This document shows, one piece after another, positions 1-7,203 of a stretch of 49,957 bases of DNA. A program made the position numbers and the translations under genes. The notes beneath the pieces are model-generated. The model ran no database searches and had not been told where the DNA came from. It worked only from the letters and a program-made list of their open reading frames with translations. Numbering within the stretch: position 1 is the stretch's first letter; each line of letters opens with the position of its first letter. Origin of the DNA: Cytophagales bacterium (GTDB lineage: Bacteria; Bacteroidota; Bacteroidia; Cytophagales; Thermoflexibacteraceae); assembly GCA_013298985.1 (NCBI GenBank), contig JAAFJS010000010.1, positions 1-49,957 of the forward strand, written 5' to 3'.

Positions 1-120
1 TACGCTTTATCATGGCGTAAGAAGTTTAAAAGCTAAATGGATACAAATGGGGTGTTAGTGTAGGGGTAATAGCAAAATTAACGAAATTAATGCAAAAAGG
101 TTTTAGTAGTTCCTTGCTTA

Positions 121-234: not shown

Positions 235-3200
235 CTATGCTATAGAGATTCTGCCCAAGATGTCGATGCGGACTTTGACAAATTTGAAATTGGCAATACT
301 TCGAATTCGCAAAAAAGCATTATTTTGAGTATATTTCTCAATTTTATCGACTTTTTCTTGTTTTTCTGTGTTATTTTCTGTTGGTTCGTCATTACCATCA
401 TCTTCCTTTTTTTTGATTTTTGTCATATTATTTACATAGTGCTTTGATAAGTTAAGGTCTATGCCATCAGTCTGGGTTACAGACATAGCCGTAAGTTTGT
501 AAAGTCTATTGAAAATTTCTTTGTCATCATCAAAATAGTTGGCAATCTCGTCAGGGCTTTTGTCGTACCTGATAAACATATCTCCCTTTTTGATAGTCCG
601 CTTTAATCCATATATCAATTTGTCTTTGATACTTTCAAACTCATCAGCTAAGAGAGGTTTTTTAGCTCTTTTGGCACGAATTGCATCTATAAAGTTTACT
701 GCAACTGCTTTGGAACTTATAGTAACCTTGCCCTTTTTATCTGTTTTTTCAGCCTGATAAATACCAATGATATAGTTACTATCTGATTCCACAAAAATAC
801 GGTGCGGCGTGTGTGGTCGAATCTCGATAAGTGAAGGTTGTTTCTTCATAATAACGGTTACTTTGTGCATAGGTACATCAAAATCATTTTCGGGCTTGCT
901 ATACGCTTTGGCGTGTACTTCATGGTCTTTATTTTTGGCTTGTGCTTTTTCCGCCCAATACTTTCGTAGTTGCTTTTGGGTTATCAAGTCAAGTACGTTT
1001 GCAATATCTACTTGCTTTATCTCAGCAACAAGTATCTTTTTTACCACTATTTTCTCGCCACGTTCGTATCCGCTTGGGTGGTTATCGAAAGGCATAGTGA
1101 TTTGCCTGTAAGGTTGTGTATGTAGATTACCTCTTGGGGCTATGATACTTTTCTCGGATAGCTTAAATATGGGCTTAACTTTTTTTCTTAACTTTCCATT
1201 TTTGCTTATCCACGTTTTTACTTTTTTACCAATTAAAGTTTTTGCCCTACGTTTGCTATAAAGCCTTTCTTCAGACTTGTGTGAAACCAATAGTTTTTCT
1301 AAGTGCAAATTTACCTGCTCTTTTAATTGATTATTACGCCAAGGCTCTTGGAGAATATCTACTGATTCTTGTTTTATATCGATTCTGTCTTTGTCCCTAC
1401 TATAATTGATATTGACAAATTTTTCACGCTCATTATTGTATTTAATTACTTTGGTTAAATGATTATTGAGTAATTCAGGAGTAGTGAGGGCTATTACTAC
1501 GGCATCTACAGCGTGGTGTCTGTTATCTTTGCGTTCTTTTATATCTTTCCCCTCTTTATTGAGCAGGTAGTTCAGTTTCCAGTGTCGTCTGAGCATAGCT
1601 GTTGCCTGTCCTTTTACTGTTTCGACATCTTTGAAAACGCTGGAAAGTATTTGCTTTGCTTTTCGGGCTGTATAAGCATTGTTTTGGAACTGTTGCTTTG
1701 ACCATTCCTCATCGGGAAATTGCTCTAACTTGAGCATTTCTTGTTTATAGTCAGGCAATTTTTTTATTCTGGCACAAAAGGCTTTCCACTCCCCTTTTCC
1801 ATGCTCCTGCATAAAATACTCATAAGGTGTTCTATCTTTTTTTTCGTTGTTAATATCACCCTCACAAAGAATTTTATTGGCAAAGTCATTATTCATGCTT
1901 CTTTTTAGAGGAACAATGTGGTCTATTTGTATATCAGAATTTTTTTGTAGCAAGCGAGCCAATGAAATAGGCTTTCCTGAATAAACAGATATTCTATTGC
2001 TTTCCAACCAGAGTTTAAACTTTGTGTTTTCAGGTTTTTCGATATTATCAGCAAATTTTAGAAAACCCTTTGCAAATGTTCCCATATCCTTAATTTCACC
2101 TTTTTTCATTTTGCTATCCAACTCCTCAAAATCCTCTTTGTCTTTCTTTTTCTCAAATTCTTCTGAGGGTATTGGATAAAGTTCGAGCCAAAGTTCATAT
2201 TTTTTTACTAAAGGGTCAGAGGGTAAAATCTCTCCTTTTTCTTTACCAAGCCCTGAATTTGTCAAAAATTTTGCGTAAGCCCTTCTAATAGTTTGCTTAT
2301 CGTTATTTTCTTTGTAAATTTTTTCCCTTGCTTTTTTAGGTTTTCGGAGTTCTCGCATAGTTTCTATGCGTACAGTTTTAATGTCAAGATTGCCATCTTT
2401 ATCAAACTGTCCGTATTTTTTGATAATCTCATTTACTAACTTAATCATTTCAGAAAGCGCACGCTGTACGATGGGGTTACGCAGTTCATTTATTTTGAGA
2501 AAGGCAAGTTCTTTTTTAAGAATACGGTCTTTGTCGTATTTATATTCCTCCGTAGTGATAGTATATTGTTGGGCTTGGCAGGCTGTGGTAAGATTTCCAC
2601 CTTCTTTTTTCATGTGTGGCAGGAGTTTTTTGATGGCGTACTCCGAAATAGAACCAAATTTTTTTTCTATGGTCATAGATGCCAAGCGTAGTATTTGTAA
2701 TTTGGAAAGTTCTTGCTTAACCAAAGTTGGCTTCTGAATGATTGAGGTAAATTCCTTCTCCAATTTTTCTTTTAGCCAACTTCTACTATCAAAGATATGT
2801 AGCCAATGCCAAATTCTTTCATATACCTCTCCCTGCAAGTATTCGTTAAGCCCGTTTTTATCTATTTCTTCGAACAAAAGTTCGTCAAATAGTAGCGGAT
2901 TTTTAGAAGGGTGATTTTCTGCCCTTTTCTTTATTTCTTCTACTCTTGCGCTCCCAAGTAAGGCATTAATAATTTTTATCCTTGTAATATTACCTATCAC
3001 TTTTCCATCCTCATCAAAATTAATTTCCACTCTTTTACCTCCAAAAACTAATTCCCGCACATCAGTAAGTGATAAGTTTGCACTATTTTGGGCAGCATTA
3101 TAAAGTATCTCTTTTTCAGATAAGGAGAGTGGTCTTGTAGGCTCATCTTCAGCAAAAACAACTCTTATATTACATATACTATCCCAAGTGCGAAACTCTT

Positions 3201-4065
3201 GGTAAATAGGTTTGGAGATAGGGGAACATCGTTTTTGAGATTCGTACCTGCATTGATTAATAAGATGCTTTTGAGATTTGAGTTTACGTTGGAAGAAAAT
3301 ACAATTCCAAATTTTCTTTACAGTATCATCGCTTAGTACATCATGGTAATATGATTGCTGCTTTTTTAAGATTTCTTCAAACTCGTATTTATACATTTCG
3401 CGTGAAGTATATCGCGCCCTTATACGCTCACTTGGCTGCTCAGGGTTGAAGCACTTTTCTTTTGCTTGTTCTTTCAAGAATAATTGATAAAAATATTCCC
3501 CCAGCGTTCGCGCTTTTGTTTCCGCTATTTTTTTATTTAGCTCGTTGATGCCAGCTTTTACTTTTTTCTCTTCCTTATCATCATCATCCTCTTCCTCTAC
3601 CTGATTTTCTATTTCCACATCCTTGATGTGCAGTAGTTTTTCTTCTTCTCTGATGAGGGATTTTAAATCAATATCATCTTTTTTACCACTTTGAAAGCCG
3701 CGCCTTCTGGCAATATGAAGAAGAACGATTGCTAATTCTTCTAAAGTAAGCAAACTATCTAAGCCTTTTGAACGAAGCTGATAAGCTAAAATACTACTCT
3801 TGTAAGATGGATGTCCAGACCAAATACCCATCTCAAAAAGAATAGTTTTTAACTCATTAATACGCTTTTTTCGCCTGAAAGCGCATCGCCGAGAAGTGCG
3901 CCCTATGCGGCGGTTTTTGCCTTTGGATTCTTCTTTGAACTTGGTGCTAATATTCACCCCCACAGGAAAAATCCTTACGCCCATGGCAATAATTTCTTGT
4001 TTTTCGTCCTCTATCAGCCCCCAGCCAATAGAGTTCGTCCCTATGTCTAATCCTAAAACTTTCAT
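235..4065 (-). CDS. cas9: Type II-C CRISPR-associated endonuclease Cas9
   Basis: This is an RNA-guided DNA endonuclease of 1276 residues. All nuclease motifs are visible: RuvC-I with Asp7 in LGLDIGTNSIGW; an Arg-rich bridge helix around 52-70; RuvC-II with Glu568 in VRIETMREL; HNH with Asp715-His716 in IQIDHIVPL and the downstream Asn in DINNEKKD; RuvC-III with His850/His851 and Asp854 in HHAVDAVVIAL. The long helical stretch at about 80-540 is the recognition lobe. The tail ends in KVRIDILGRISIA, as in complete Bacteroidota II-C proteins. Length and the GVRIFPVGV opening favour subtype II-C. ATG at 4065 is the natural start because RuvC-I begins right after it. The gene ends 234 nt from the window edge and no cas1 or cas2 is visible. 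The putative tracrRNA lies immediately upstream on the other strand. The protein should be catalytically competent; whether it still has an array is unknown. Confidence 0.98.
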   Translation of the reverse strand: MKVLGLDIGTNSIGWGLIEDEKQEIIAMGVRIFPVGVNISTKFKEESKGKNRRIGRTSRRCAFRRKKRINELKTILFEMGIWSGHPSYKSSILAYQLRSKGLDSLLTLEELAIVLLHIARRRGFQSGKKDDIDLKSLIREEEKLLHIKDVEIENQVEEEDDDDKEEKKVKAGINELNKKIAETKARTLGEYFYQLFLKEQAKEKCFNPEQPSERIRARYTSREMYKYEFEEILKKQQSYYHDVLSDDTVKKIWNCIFFQRKLKSQKHLINQCRYESQKRCSPISKPIYQEFRTWDSICNIRVVFAEDEPTRPLSLSEKEILYNAAQNSANLSLTDVRELVFGGKRVEINFDEDGKVIGNITRIKIINALLGSARVEEIKKRAENHPSKNPLLFDELLFEEIDKNGLNEYLQGEVYERIWHWLHIFDSRSWLKEKLEKEFTSIIQKPTLVKQELSKLQILRLASMTIEKKFGSISEYAIKKLLPHMKKEGGNLTTACQAQQYTITTEEYKYDKDRILKKELAFLKINELRNPIVQRALSEMIKLVNEIIKKYGQFDKDGNLDIKTVRIETMRELRKPKKAREKIYKENNDKQTIRRAYAKFLTNSGLGKEKGEILPSDPLVKKYELWLELYPIPSEEFEKKKDKEDFEELDSKMKKGEIKDMGTFAKGFLKFADNIEKPENTKFKLWLESNRISVYSGKPISLARLLQKNSDIQIDHIVPLKRSMNNDFANKILCEGDINNEKKDRTPYEYFMQEHGKGEWKAFCARIKKLPDYKQEMLKLEQFPDEEWSKQQFQNNAYTARKAKQILSSVFKDVETVKGQATAMLRRHWKLNYLLNKEGKDIKERKDNRHHAVDAVVIALTTPELLNNHLTKVIKYNNEREKFVNINYSRDKDRIDIKQESVDILQEPWRNNQLKEQVNLHLEKLLVSHKSEERLYSKRRAKTLIGKKVKTWISKNGKLRKKVKPIFKLSEKSIIAPRGNLHTQPYRQITMPFDNHPSGYERGEKIVVKKILVAEIKQVDIANVLDLITQKQLRKYWAEKAQAKNKDHEVHAKAYSKPENDFDVPMHKVTVIMKKQPSLIEIRPHTPHRIFVESDSNYIIGIYQAEKTDKKGKVTISSKAVAVNFIDAIRAKRAKKPLLADEFESIKDKLIYGLKRTIKKGDMFIRYDKSPDEIANYFDDDKEIFNRLYKLTAMSVTQTDGIDLNLSKHYVNNMTKIKKKEDDGNDEPTENNTEKQEKVDKIEKYTQNNAFLRIRSIANFKFVKVRIDILGRISIA

Positions 4066-4130: not shown

Positions 4131-4161
4131 TTTGTTATTTCAAAATAAATACTTAACTTTG
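4131..4161 (+). promoter_or_regulatory. Bacteroidota sigma-A promoter for the putative tracrRNA
   Basis: TTTG at 4131-4134, a 19-nt spacer, then TAACTTTG at 4154-4161 is an exact match to the Bacteroidota housekeeping promoter (-33 TTTG, -7 TAnnTTTG). It points away from cas9. No ORF follows it before the terminator at 4260-4287, so it drives a non-coding RNA. Confidence 0.8.
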
Positions 4162-4166
4162 TTTAT

Positions 4167-4287
4167 CCTTATTTGAAAGTAAAGAAATTAGTATTGCTAT
4201 TTTCCTTATTTGTTAGCTTATCATAATAAAAGATTATTCTGTAGGCTGTTTTCAGCCTTGCCCTTGCTTCGAGCAGGGGCTTTTTTT
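4167..4287 (+). ncRNA. Putative tracrRNA of the type II-C system
   Basis: About 120 nt lie between a consensus promoter and an intrinsic terminator, with no ORF, immediately upstream of and divergent from cas9. The 5' part (about 4167-4215) is AT-rich and unstructured, as expected of an anti-repeat. It is followed by the hairpin AGGCTG-TTTT-CAGCCT and by a GC-rich hairpin with a T run. Size, hairpin order and position all fit tracrRNAs of II-C loci. The terminator is oriented for the plus strand: the T run is only on that side, so it does not belong to the minus-strand gene ending at 4326. The start is estimated at 5-7 nt after the -7 box. The matching CRISPR repeat is not in the window, so the anti-repeat cannot be verified here. 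Confidence 0.72.
4260..4287 (+). terminator. Intrinsic terminator of the tracrRNA
   Basis: GCCCTTGC, loop TTCGA, GCAGGGGC forms an 8-bp stem (one G-T pair), followed by seven T residues. There is no T run on the opposite strand, so the direction is plus. Confidence 0.85.
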
Positions 4288-6975: not shown

Positions 6976-6984
6976 TAATTCAAG

Positions 6985-7187
6985 TTTAAACTTTAAACTC
7001 TAAACCTTGAACTTTAAACTCTAAACCTTGAACTTTAAACTCTAAACCTTGAACTTTAAACTCTAAACCTTGAACTTTAAACTCTAAACCTTGAACTTTA
7101 AACTTTAAACTTTAAACCTTAAACCTTAAACCTTGAACTTTAAACCTTAAACCTTAAACCTTAAACCTTGAACTTTAAACCTTAAAC
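6985..7187 (+). repeat. Heptanucleotide tandem array (29 units)
   Basis: The 203 bp divide exactly into 29 heptamers of four variants: TTTAAAC, TCTAAAC, CTTGAAC and CTTAAAC. The first part repeats the 21-bp triplet TTTAAAC-TCTAAAC-CTTGAAC five times; the rest is a mixture of the same variants. Consecutive units keep one phase throughout. The array fills the whole gap between the M20 deacylase and ansA, ending 16 nt before the ansA ATG, so it lies in the ansA leader or promoter region. It is probably a slippage-prone sequence. Confidence 0.95.
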
Positions 7188-7203
7188 GTAAAATGTAAAA
7201 TCC

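Follow-up and report, generated by a model that had tools for sequence, protein, structure and literature searches.

The locus considered here raises two linked questions: which RNA, if any, is encoded between a cas9 gene and the gene that converges on it from the other side, and how would such an RNA engage the CRISPR repeat of its own genome? The window, by which we mean the whole 49,957-bp stretch of DNA analyzed, is an entire contig (C2) of a Cytophagales genome of the Thermoflexibacteraceae (G000; 6.06 Mb, 383 contigs, 98% complete). We compared it with two genus-mates, namely the Cytophagales MAG REAZ01 (G001; 62% complete) and Thermoflexibacter ruber DSM 9560 (G002; NZ_FONY01). The cas end of the window presents the following features:

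1-13, minus strand: start of cas1; the first codons (ATGATAAAGCGTA) match those of G001 cas1 without a difference, and the preceding intergenic sequence is common to both
120-176: palindromic dispersed repeat, REP/MITE-like, between cas9 and cas1 and outside the tracrRNA
235-4065, minus strand: cas9, 1276 aa, uninterrupted, TIGR01865 at 491 bits, with HNH_4 and RuvC_III domains

The contig stops 234 bp 3' of cas9, inside cas1, and of the cas operon it is cas9 and this cas1 start that are assembled in the window genome. In G001 the gene order is cas9, cas1, cas2 and the array, with both cas1 (PF01867) and cas2 confirmed by Pfam, and in T. ruber two ORFs following cas9 resemble cas1 and cas2, as judged by ORF resemblance without profile scores. 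The gene order of the genus-mates makes subtype II-C likely, an assignment that is not settled in the window genome itself. The window Cas9, at 1276 aa, is about 160 aa longer than those of the genus-mates (1110 and 1120 aa), and a Cas9 scan of the contig collection found no relative. Two repetitive elements were observed in passing: the palindrome at 120-176 has 28-nt arms and recurs in at least 40 places of the genome (80 matches on both strands, with 40 of 118 candidates scored), and a tandem array of 21- and 14-bp units of the TTAAACTCTAAACCTTGAACT type lies between two genes at 6977-7195.

On the other side of cas9, the interval bounded by the cas9 start (4065, minus strand) and the end of the converging gene (4326) is devoid of any ORF of at least 80 aa. 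Very probably, 4131-4287 encodes the tracrRNA of a type II Cas9 system. Its signals and 3' elements are as follows:

4131-4134, plus strand: TTTG, -33 box of a putative Bacteroidota promoter, by motif match
4154-4161, plus strand: TAACTTTG, -7 box, 19 nt after the TTTG, placing the putative transcript start at about 4167
4228-4245, plus strand: nexus-like element, with conserved copies in G000, G001 (two of them), G002 and the Hymenobacteraceae MAG G140
4243-4258, plus strand: hairpin of the GGCTGTTTTCAGCC region, predicted fold
4260-4287, plus strand: intrinsic terminator, predicted stem 4260-4280 followed by T7 at 4281-4287

The first-pass annotation had described this stretch as a divergent tracrRNA candidate with an exact promoter and terminator. 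The motif TTTG-N19-TAACTTTG, which we take to represent the -33 and -7 boxes of the Bacteroidota promoter, is indeed present exactly as it had reported, and so are the two hairpins, the T run, the lack of an ORF and the orientation away from cas9. The weight to be placed on the signals is another matter: the 50-kb window contains 13 instances of the relaxed pattern TTTG-N17-21-TANNTTTG, where 3.2 would be expected, and the terminator is one of four terminator-like sites in 2 kb, both strands counted, where 2.5 would be expected. Each signal is therefore weak evidence when taken alone. A TANNTTTG box also lies 4-5 nt 5' of the first block of the RNA in both G001 and T. ruber. Roughly 100 nt separate the putative RNA start from the start codon of cas9, which places the RNA near cas9 and outside the array. 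The 121 nt of 4167-4287 fold at -32.8 kcal/mol (z -2.93), a value reached by none of 200 dinucleotide shuffles, and the predicted order of nexus and hairpins 3' of an anti-repeat, closed by a terminator, comprises the 3' modules of a type II tracrRNA. Rfam, including its tracrRNA family, gave no match at the gathering score in the window.

The annotation had further proposed to look in the rest of the genome for a CRISPR repeat complementary to the candidate. Querying the genome with the 3' anti-repeat in exact reverse complement retrieved the tracrRNA itself and chance-level sites (27 against 19 for the reversed control) and was set aside; the array of the window genome was instead located via the repeat of G001, whose array contains the consensus GTTGTGGTTTGCTTTCAAATAAGGATTTTGTATATT 62 times in a row. 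The first 24 bases of that repeat have one exact match in the window genome, on the minus strand of C118 (278-301), and none elsewhere in it at up to three mismatches; the reversed-pattern control likewise gave none. C118 carries a 36-bp repeat, GTTGTGGTTTGCTTTCAAATAAGGAGTTTGTAAATT, assembled in one copy and followed by at most 28 nt of spacer and then by an insertion sequence (this region of C118 is L096, 1-301), whose end is common to eight further places of the genome. A 72-aa transposase fragment on C118 has no Pfam match. A reading in which the 30 nt past the repeat make up one whole spacer and the insertion sequence lies 2 nt into the next repeat was dropped because the insertion sequence is shared to base 237/238 of L096, leaving at most 28 nt. 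As a separate observation, the G001 array contains a truncated repeat at about 16925-17065 of L034; a tandem repeat of roughly 20 bp (ATAACTAATAACCAATGACC) comes after it, before the outermost repeat is reached.

When co-folded with the candidate, the C118 repeat interacts at -18.6 kcal/mol; shuffled repeats average -6.0 +/- 2.5 kcal/mol, with none of 200 as good. The corresponding co-folds of G001 (-21.6 kcal/mol) and T. ruber (-20.0 kcal/mol) with their own repeats also beat 200 of 200 shuffles; the T. ruber repeat was taken from two copies at the end of contig C109 and assigned by sequence, and the shuffles in the co-folding and in the split and continuous comparisons below are mononucleotide. 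A second tracrRNA core was absent from the window genome at up to three mismatches. In the folding model, the pairing of the genome's own repeat with the candidate, together with the lack of a competing core, supports the proposal that this RNA is a tracrRNA, and the combination of a non-pairing array with another tracrRNA, which would have spoken against it, was not encountered. The intergenic position, and promoter and terminator motifs that are weak alone, would also suit a leader, terminator or antisense RNA of a neighboring gene that is no tracrRNA at all; given the specific complementarity to the genome's own CRISPR repeat and the conservation beside cas9 in the genus, we find this scarcely credible.

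The state of the array has a bearing on whether the system is functional. With a single assembled repeat, a partial spacer interrupted by an insertion sequence and Cas1 undetected in the assembly, the system may no longer be whole: the RNA would then be a tracrRNA by descent in a decayed system that had lost its adaptation genes, which is compatible with the bipartite anatomy described below. Cas1 was sought in the assembly with the Pfam model, which was positive in 9 of 14 control genomes, and with the G001 protein as query, which had no positive control, and neither detected it. Against decay, cas9 is uninterrupted with its HNH and RuvC domains and the tracrRNA core is 96% identical to that of G001, while the contig ends inside cas1, and an assembly gap explains the absence of Cas1 equally well. 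Judged from their sequences, cas9 and the tracrRNA look intact; the rest of the array and Cas1 may be missing through an assembly gap or through real decay, and on balance we regard a decayed system as unlikely, if a serious contender.

The annotation had placed the anti-repeat within 4167-4215. This placement does not hold: the 3' block lies at 4215-4227, and much of 4167-4215 is a predicted hairpin (4177-4211), unless an equally stable continuous pairing is used. The pairing elements are the following:

4167-4179, plus strand: AR1, 5' anti-repeat block CCTTATTTGAAAG, complementary to repeat nt 12-24, with 4167-4176 paired in the split fold
4177-4211, plus strand: predicted stem-loop insert of 14 pairs, in the minimum free energy (MFE) structures of the free RNA and of the split duplex
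4204-4212, plus strand: second CCTTATTTG copy, in the 3' arm of the insert, permitting a continuous anti-repeat at 4204-4227
4215-4227, plus strand: AR2, 3' anti-repeat block AGCTTATCATAAT, pairing with repeat nt 1-13, the duplex being interrupted by a single 2x2 U.U internal loop

The complementarity of AR1 to the repeat is above chance in the window, G001 and T. ruber (none of 2000 shuffles in each case); in the window the segment 4161-4183 pairs with repeat nt 13-36 at -15.7 kcal/mol, with none of 2000 shuffles as good. AR1 begins at the putative transcript start in all three genus members. The insert hairpin by itself is of unexceptional stability in G000 (105 of 1000 shuffles as stable) and G001 (193 of 1000), neither being significant, and moderately distinguished in T. 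ruber (13 of 1000). As the 3' arm of the insert carries the second CCTTATTTG, continuous pairing is possible in the window and in G001, and there the two states are nearly equal: in the window continuous pairing (-54.1 kcal/mol) is better than split pairing (-53.8 kcal/mol) by 0.3, and in G001 the split (-50.3 kcal/mol) is better than the continuous state (-50.1 kcal/mol) by 0.2. The MFE duplex of the window has no gap above 4 nt, as in the outgroups considered below. In T. ruber, the split state (-44.6 kcal/mol) far exceeds the continuous one (-30.5 kcal/mol), and barring AR1 costs 14 kcal/mol. Its AR1 differs (AATTTAACAAATC and the following bases), its insert is a different hairpin, and its AR1 pairs at -17.2 kcal/mol with its own repeat against -8.5 and -5.8 kcal/mol with the other two repeats of the genus; the reverse specificity is weaker, with the AR1 of G000 and G001 reaching -12.2 kcal/mol with the T. 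ruber repeat. Hence, in the energy model it is T. ruber alone that discriminates in favor of split pairing, which is possible in the window and G001; because the two pairings are about equal in the window, we infer the split there. The anti-repeat thus appears, from the modeled folds, to be divided by an inserted hairpin in this genus.

These energies also frame the main competitor, an ordinary tracrRNA with a continuous anti-repeat at 4204-4227, in which AR1 would be left over from a partial duplication or be a 5' tail trimmed off in processing. It accords with the MFE of the window (-54.1 against -53.8) and with outgroups that are continuous or have a bulge of at most 7 nt, but it must contend with the poor continuous pairing of T. 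ruber (-30.5 against -44.6), whose different AR1 matches its own repeat, with AR1 and the insert being conserved like the rest of the RNA between G000 and G001, and with the position of AR1 at the putative transcript start in all three members. We hold it to be improbable, albeit the best placed of the alternatives. A bolder proposal would turn the near-equality into a mechanism: a two-duplex Cas9 guide around a stem-loop, bistable in the window and G001, with the 3' half of the crRNA on AR1 while the hairpin is folded, or on the second CCTTATTTG once it is opened, such that a register switch, perhaps temperature-dependent, would gate RNase III processing or Cas9 loading. This we consider decidedly doubtful.

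Streptococcus pyogenes possesses tracr-L, a long tracrRNA whose 5' extension precedes the anti-repeat and folds back onto it. Unlike in tracr-L, the extension in the window covers the upper part of the anti-repeat only and is itself anti-repeat. One might nonetheless envisage a tracr-L-like natural single guide, in which the 5' arm of the insert mimics the repeat and the 5' end directs Cas9 to repress its own locus, as this arm does pair with 4204-4211 of the anti-repeat in the free RNA. However, in the free fold this mimic does not engage AR2, the nexus-proximal stem, which stays unpaired, so that the duplex for Cas9 to hold would be missing, and the 5' segment of the RNA is a complement of the repeat. 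As AR2 is free in the fold of the lone RNA, we rejected this reading, which we judge very improbable.

Comparison with relatives bears on whether the two blocks evolved together. An RNA of this kind, likewise divergent, is encoded upstream of cas9 in both G001 and T. ruber. Between the window and G001, the stretch from AR1 to the nexus (4167-4245) is identical at 76 of 79 positions without gaps, while elsewhere the same pair matches at 2153 of 3943 columns of cas9 DNA, 76 of 104 of the spacer with the putative promoter between cas9 and AR1, and 38 of 57 of the tail hairpins. All three differences, as we read the folds, keep pairing: that at 4224 turns a U.G into a C-G opposite G4 of the repeat, and the other two, which are adjacent, shift a U.U mismatch inside the 14-pair stem. 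This identity, together with the pairing-preserving nature of the differences, argues at the sequence level for joint selection on AR1, the insert and AR2. The conservation of the tracrRNA is far above that of Cas9, whose protein identity between the window and G001 is 45%.

We observed a Cas9 match in 31 of 148 genomes, the window genome included, and took 17 loci (L034-L050) from the other 30, two of them being those of the genus-mates. Of the remaining 15, nine, which belong to the family or order, offered a repeat together with a recognizable tracrRNA and were folded; those left out were L044 and L047 (repeat, no tracrRNA found), L037, L041 and L049 (core, no array) and L048 (neither). A divergent tracrRNA-like core is present at 10 of the 12 loci with a located cas9 start, the window included. 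The largest gap on the tracrRNA side of the outgroup duplexes is 0-4 nt in eight of the nine and 7 nt in one (G082, in another place), as compared to 38 nt in G001, 21 nt in T. ruber and 4 nt in the window, where the MFE is continuous. As the nine outgroup pairs and G140 are without a large insert, the insert looks like an innovation of the genus, sampled here by the sequences of three species. The pattern of AR2 plus nexus was recovered on three contigs of a collection of 84,980 species, those of G001, G002 and G140, the window's own genome possibly being excluded. A 16-nt anti-repeat scan missed most mismatched tracrRNAs; a 13-nt AR2 scan found several further tracrRNAs, and the sites of the window, G001 and G082, which were not among its top five, were located by motif search and reading of the regions upstream of cas9. 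A MAFFT alignment of five loci was used for AR2 and the nexus only, the inserts not being sensibly aligned. In G110 a second anti-repeat-like stretch (TGAAGCAATTCACAGC) was seen near the cas9 start, besides the tracrRNA, at about 7711-7726 of L045 on the minus strand.

G001 also bears a second tracrRNA-like element, at about 12680-12830 of L034 on the minus strand, between cas2 and the array and in the direction of the array. It comprises TTTTTGAAAG, a long hairpin (-18.5 kcal/mol, none of 1000 shuffles as good), GCTTATCACAAT, a nexus and a terminator; as a whole it interacts with the repeat better than any of 200 shuffles, and its AR1 part is not significant (115 of 2000). Going by its placement, it could be co-transcribed with the array.

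That a tracrRNA lies just upstream of cas9 in Bacteroidota is already known. The CRISPRCas_38 tracrRNA model is confined to type II-C, with 578 of 599 instances in Bacteroidetes, lies typically at most 100 bases upstream of cas9 and has an antirepeat matching the array repeats (PMC9067536); the window resembles this description of the model in position and antirepeat. Riemerella anatipestifer has a tracrRNA candidate whose short anti-repeat TGAAAGCAATTCACAA lies upstream of cas9 as one uninterrupted 16-nt block (PMC5006608), like the window in its location and unlike it in being a single block. Closer at hand, the tracrRNAs of the Cas9 relatives G140 and G029 share with the window a near-identical AR2 plus nexus, AGCTTATCACAATAAAGAT(A/C)ATTCTGCAGG, and differ from the genus in reading CTGAAAGC or CTTTTGAGC uninterrupted where the latter has a stem-loop stretch of 21-38 nt. 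G029 was co-folded with its repeat; G140 reads CTGAAAGCTTATCACAAT without the insert and, no array having been found, its continuity is taken from the sequence. Four tracrRNAs of the AATAAGGATTATTCCG type that were compared (G042, G110, G017 and G085) likewise have a continuous anti-repeat.

Type II systems are described as having a single imperfect repeat:anti-repeat duplex (PMC11246509), and a single duplex with at most a small bulge is to be understood as the usual rather than the defining type II feature. The V-B, V-F and V-G tracrRNAs are described as forming two repeat:anti-repeat duplexes with a Cas12 effector, and in several cases a pseudoknot (PMC11246509, PMC10511118). The proposed split is like these in having the repeat held by two separate anti-repeat segments, and unlike them in its Cas9 effector and in the co-linear arrangement that its two duplexes would have on either side of a stem-loop. 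A limited search of the open-access literature yielded no Cas9 precedent for a split or two-block anti-repeat, with a two-anti-repeat case in Cas12g and a three-way junction in IscB, and no paper on CRISPR in Thermoflexibacter. Gasiunas et al. 2020 report longer, more complex guide RNAs in some Cas9 clades (PMC7606464); the hairpin-interrupted Cas9 anti-repeat looks new, and similar inserts are possible among those guide RNAs.

Computation places the RNA beside cas9, pairs it with the genome's own repeat, finds it conserved and resolves the split in T. ruber. Taking these together with the divided anatomy, we consider it probable that the locus is a type II, most likely II-C, tracrRNA gene running away from cas9 over about 4167-4287 with a bipartite anti-repeat. 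We posit that the RNA would be transcribed from about 4167 to 4287, divergently from cas9; that AR2 (4215-4227) would form the stem beside the nexus by pairing with the crRNA repeat over its 5' half; and that AR1 (4167-4176, up to 4179) would pair with the 3' half of this repeat. The stem-loop 4177-4211 would then project from the tracrRNA strand and create a three-way junction; in related Cas9s the duplex runs on through this place without a break. The window RNA would have to adopt this split over the equally stable continuous state, and RNase III would presumably cut the upper duplex, with Cas9 being loaded. If this is true, tracrRNA finders that need one continuous anti-repeat match can misplace the anti-repeat. 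Moreover, the stem-loop at the junction of the lower and upper stems, a site of interest for guide engineering, would show where the Cas9 of this lineage tolerates or uses extra RNA.
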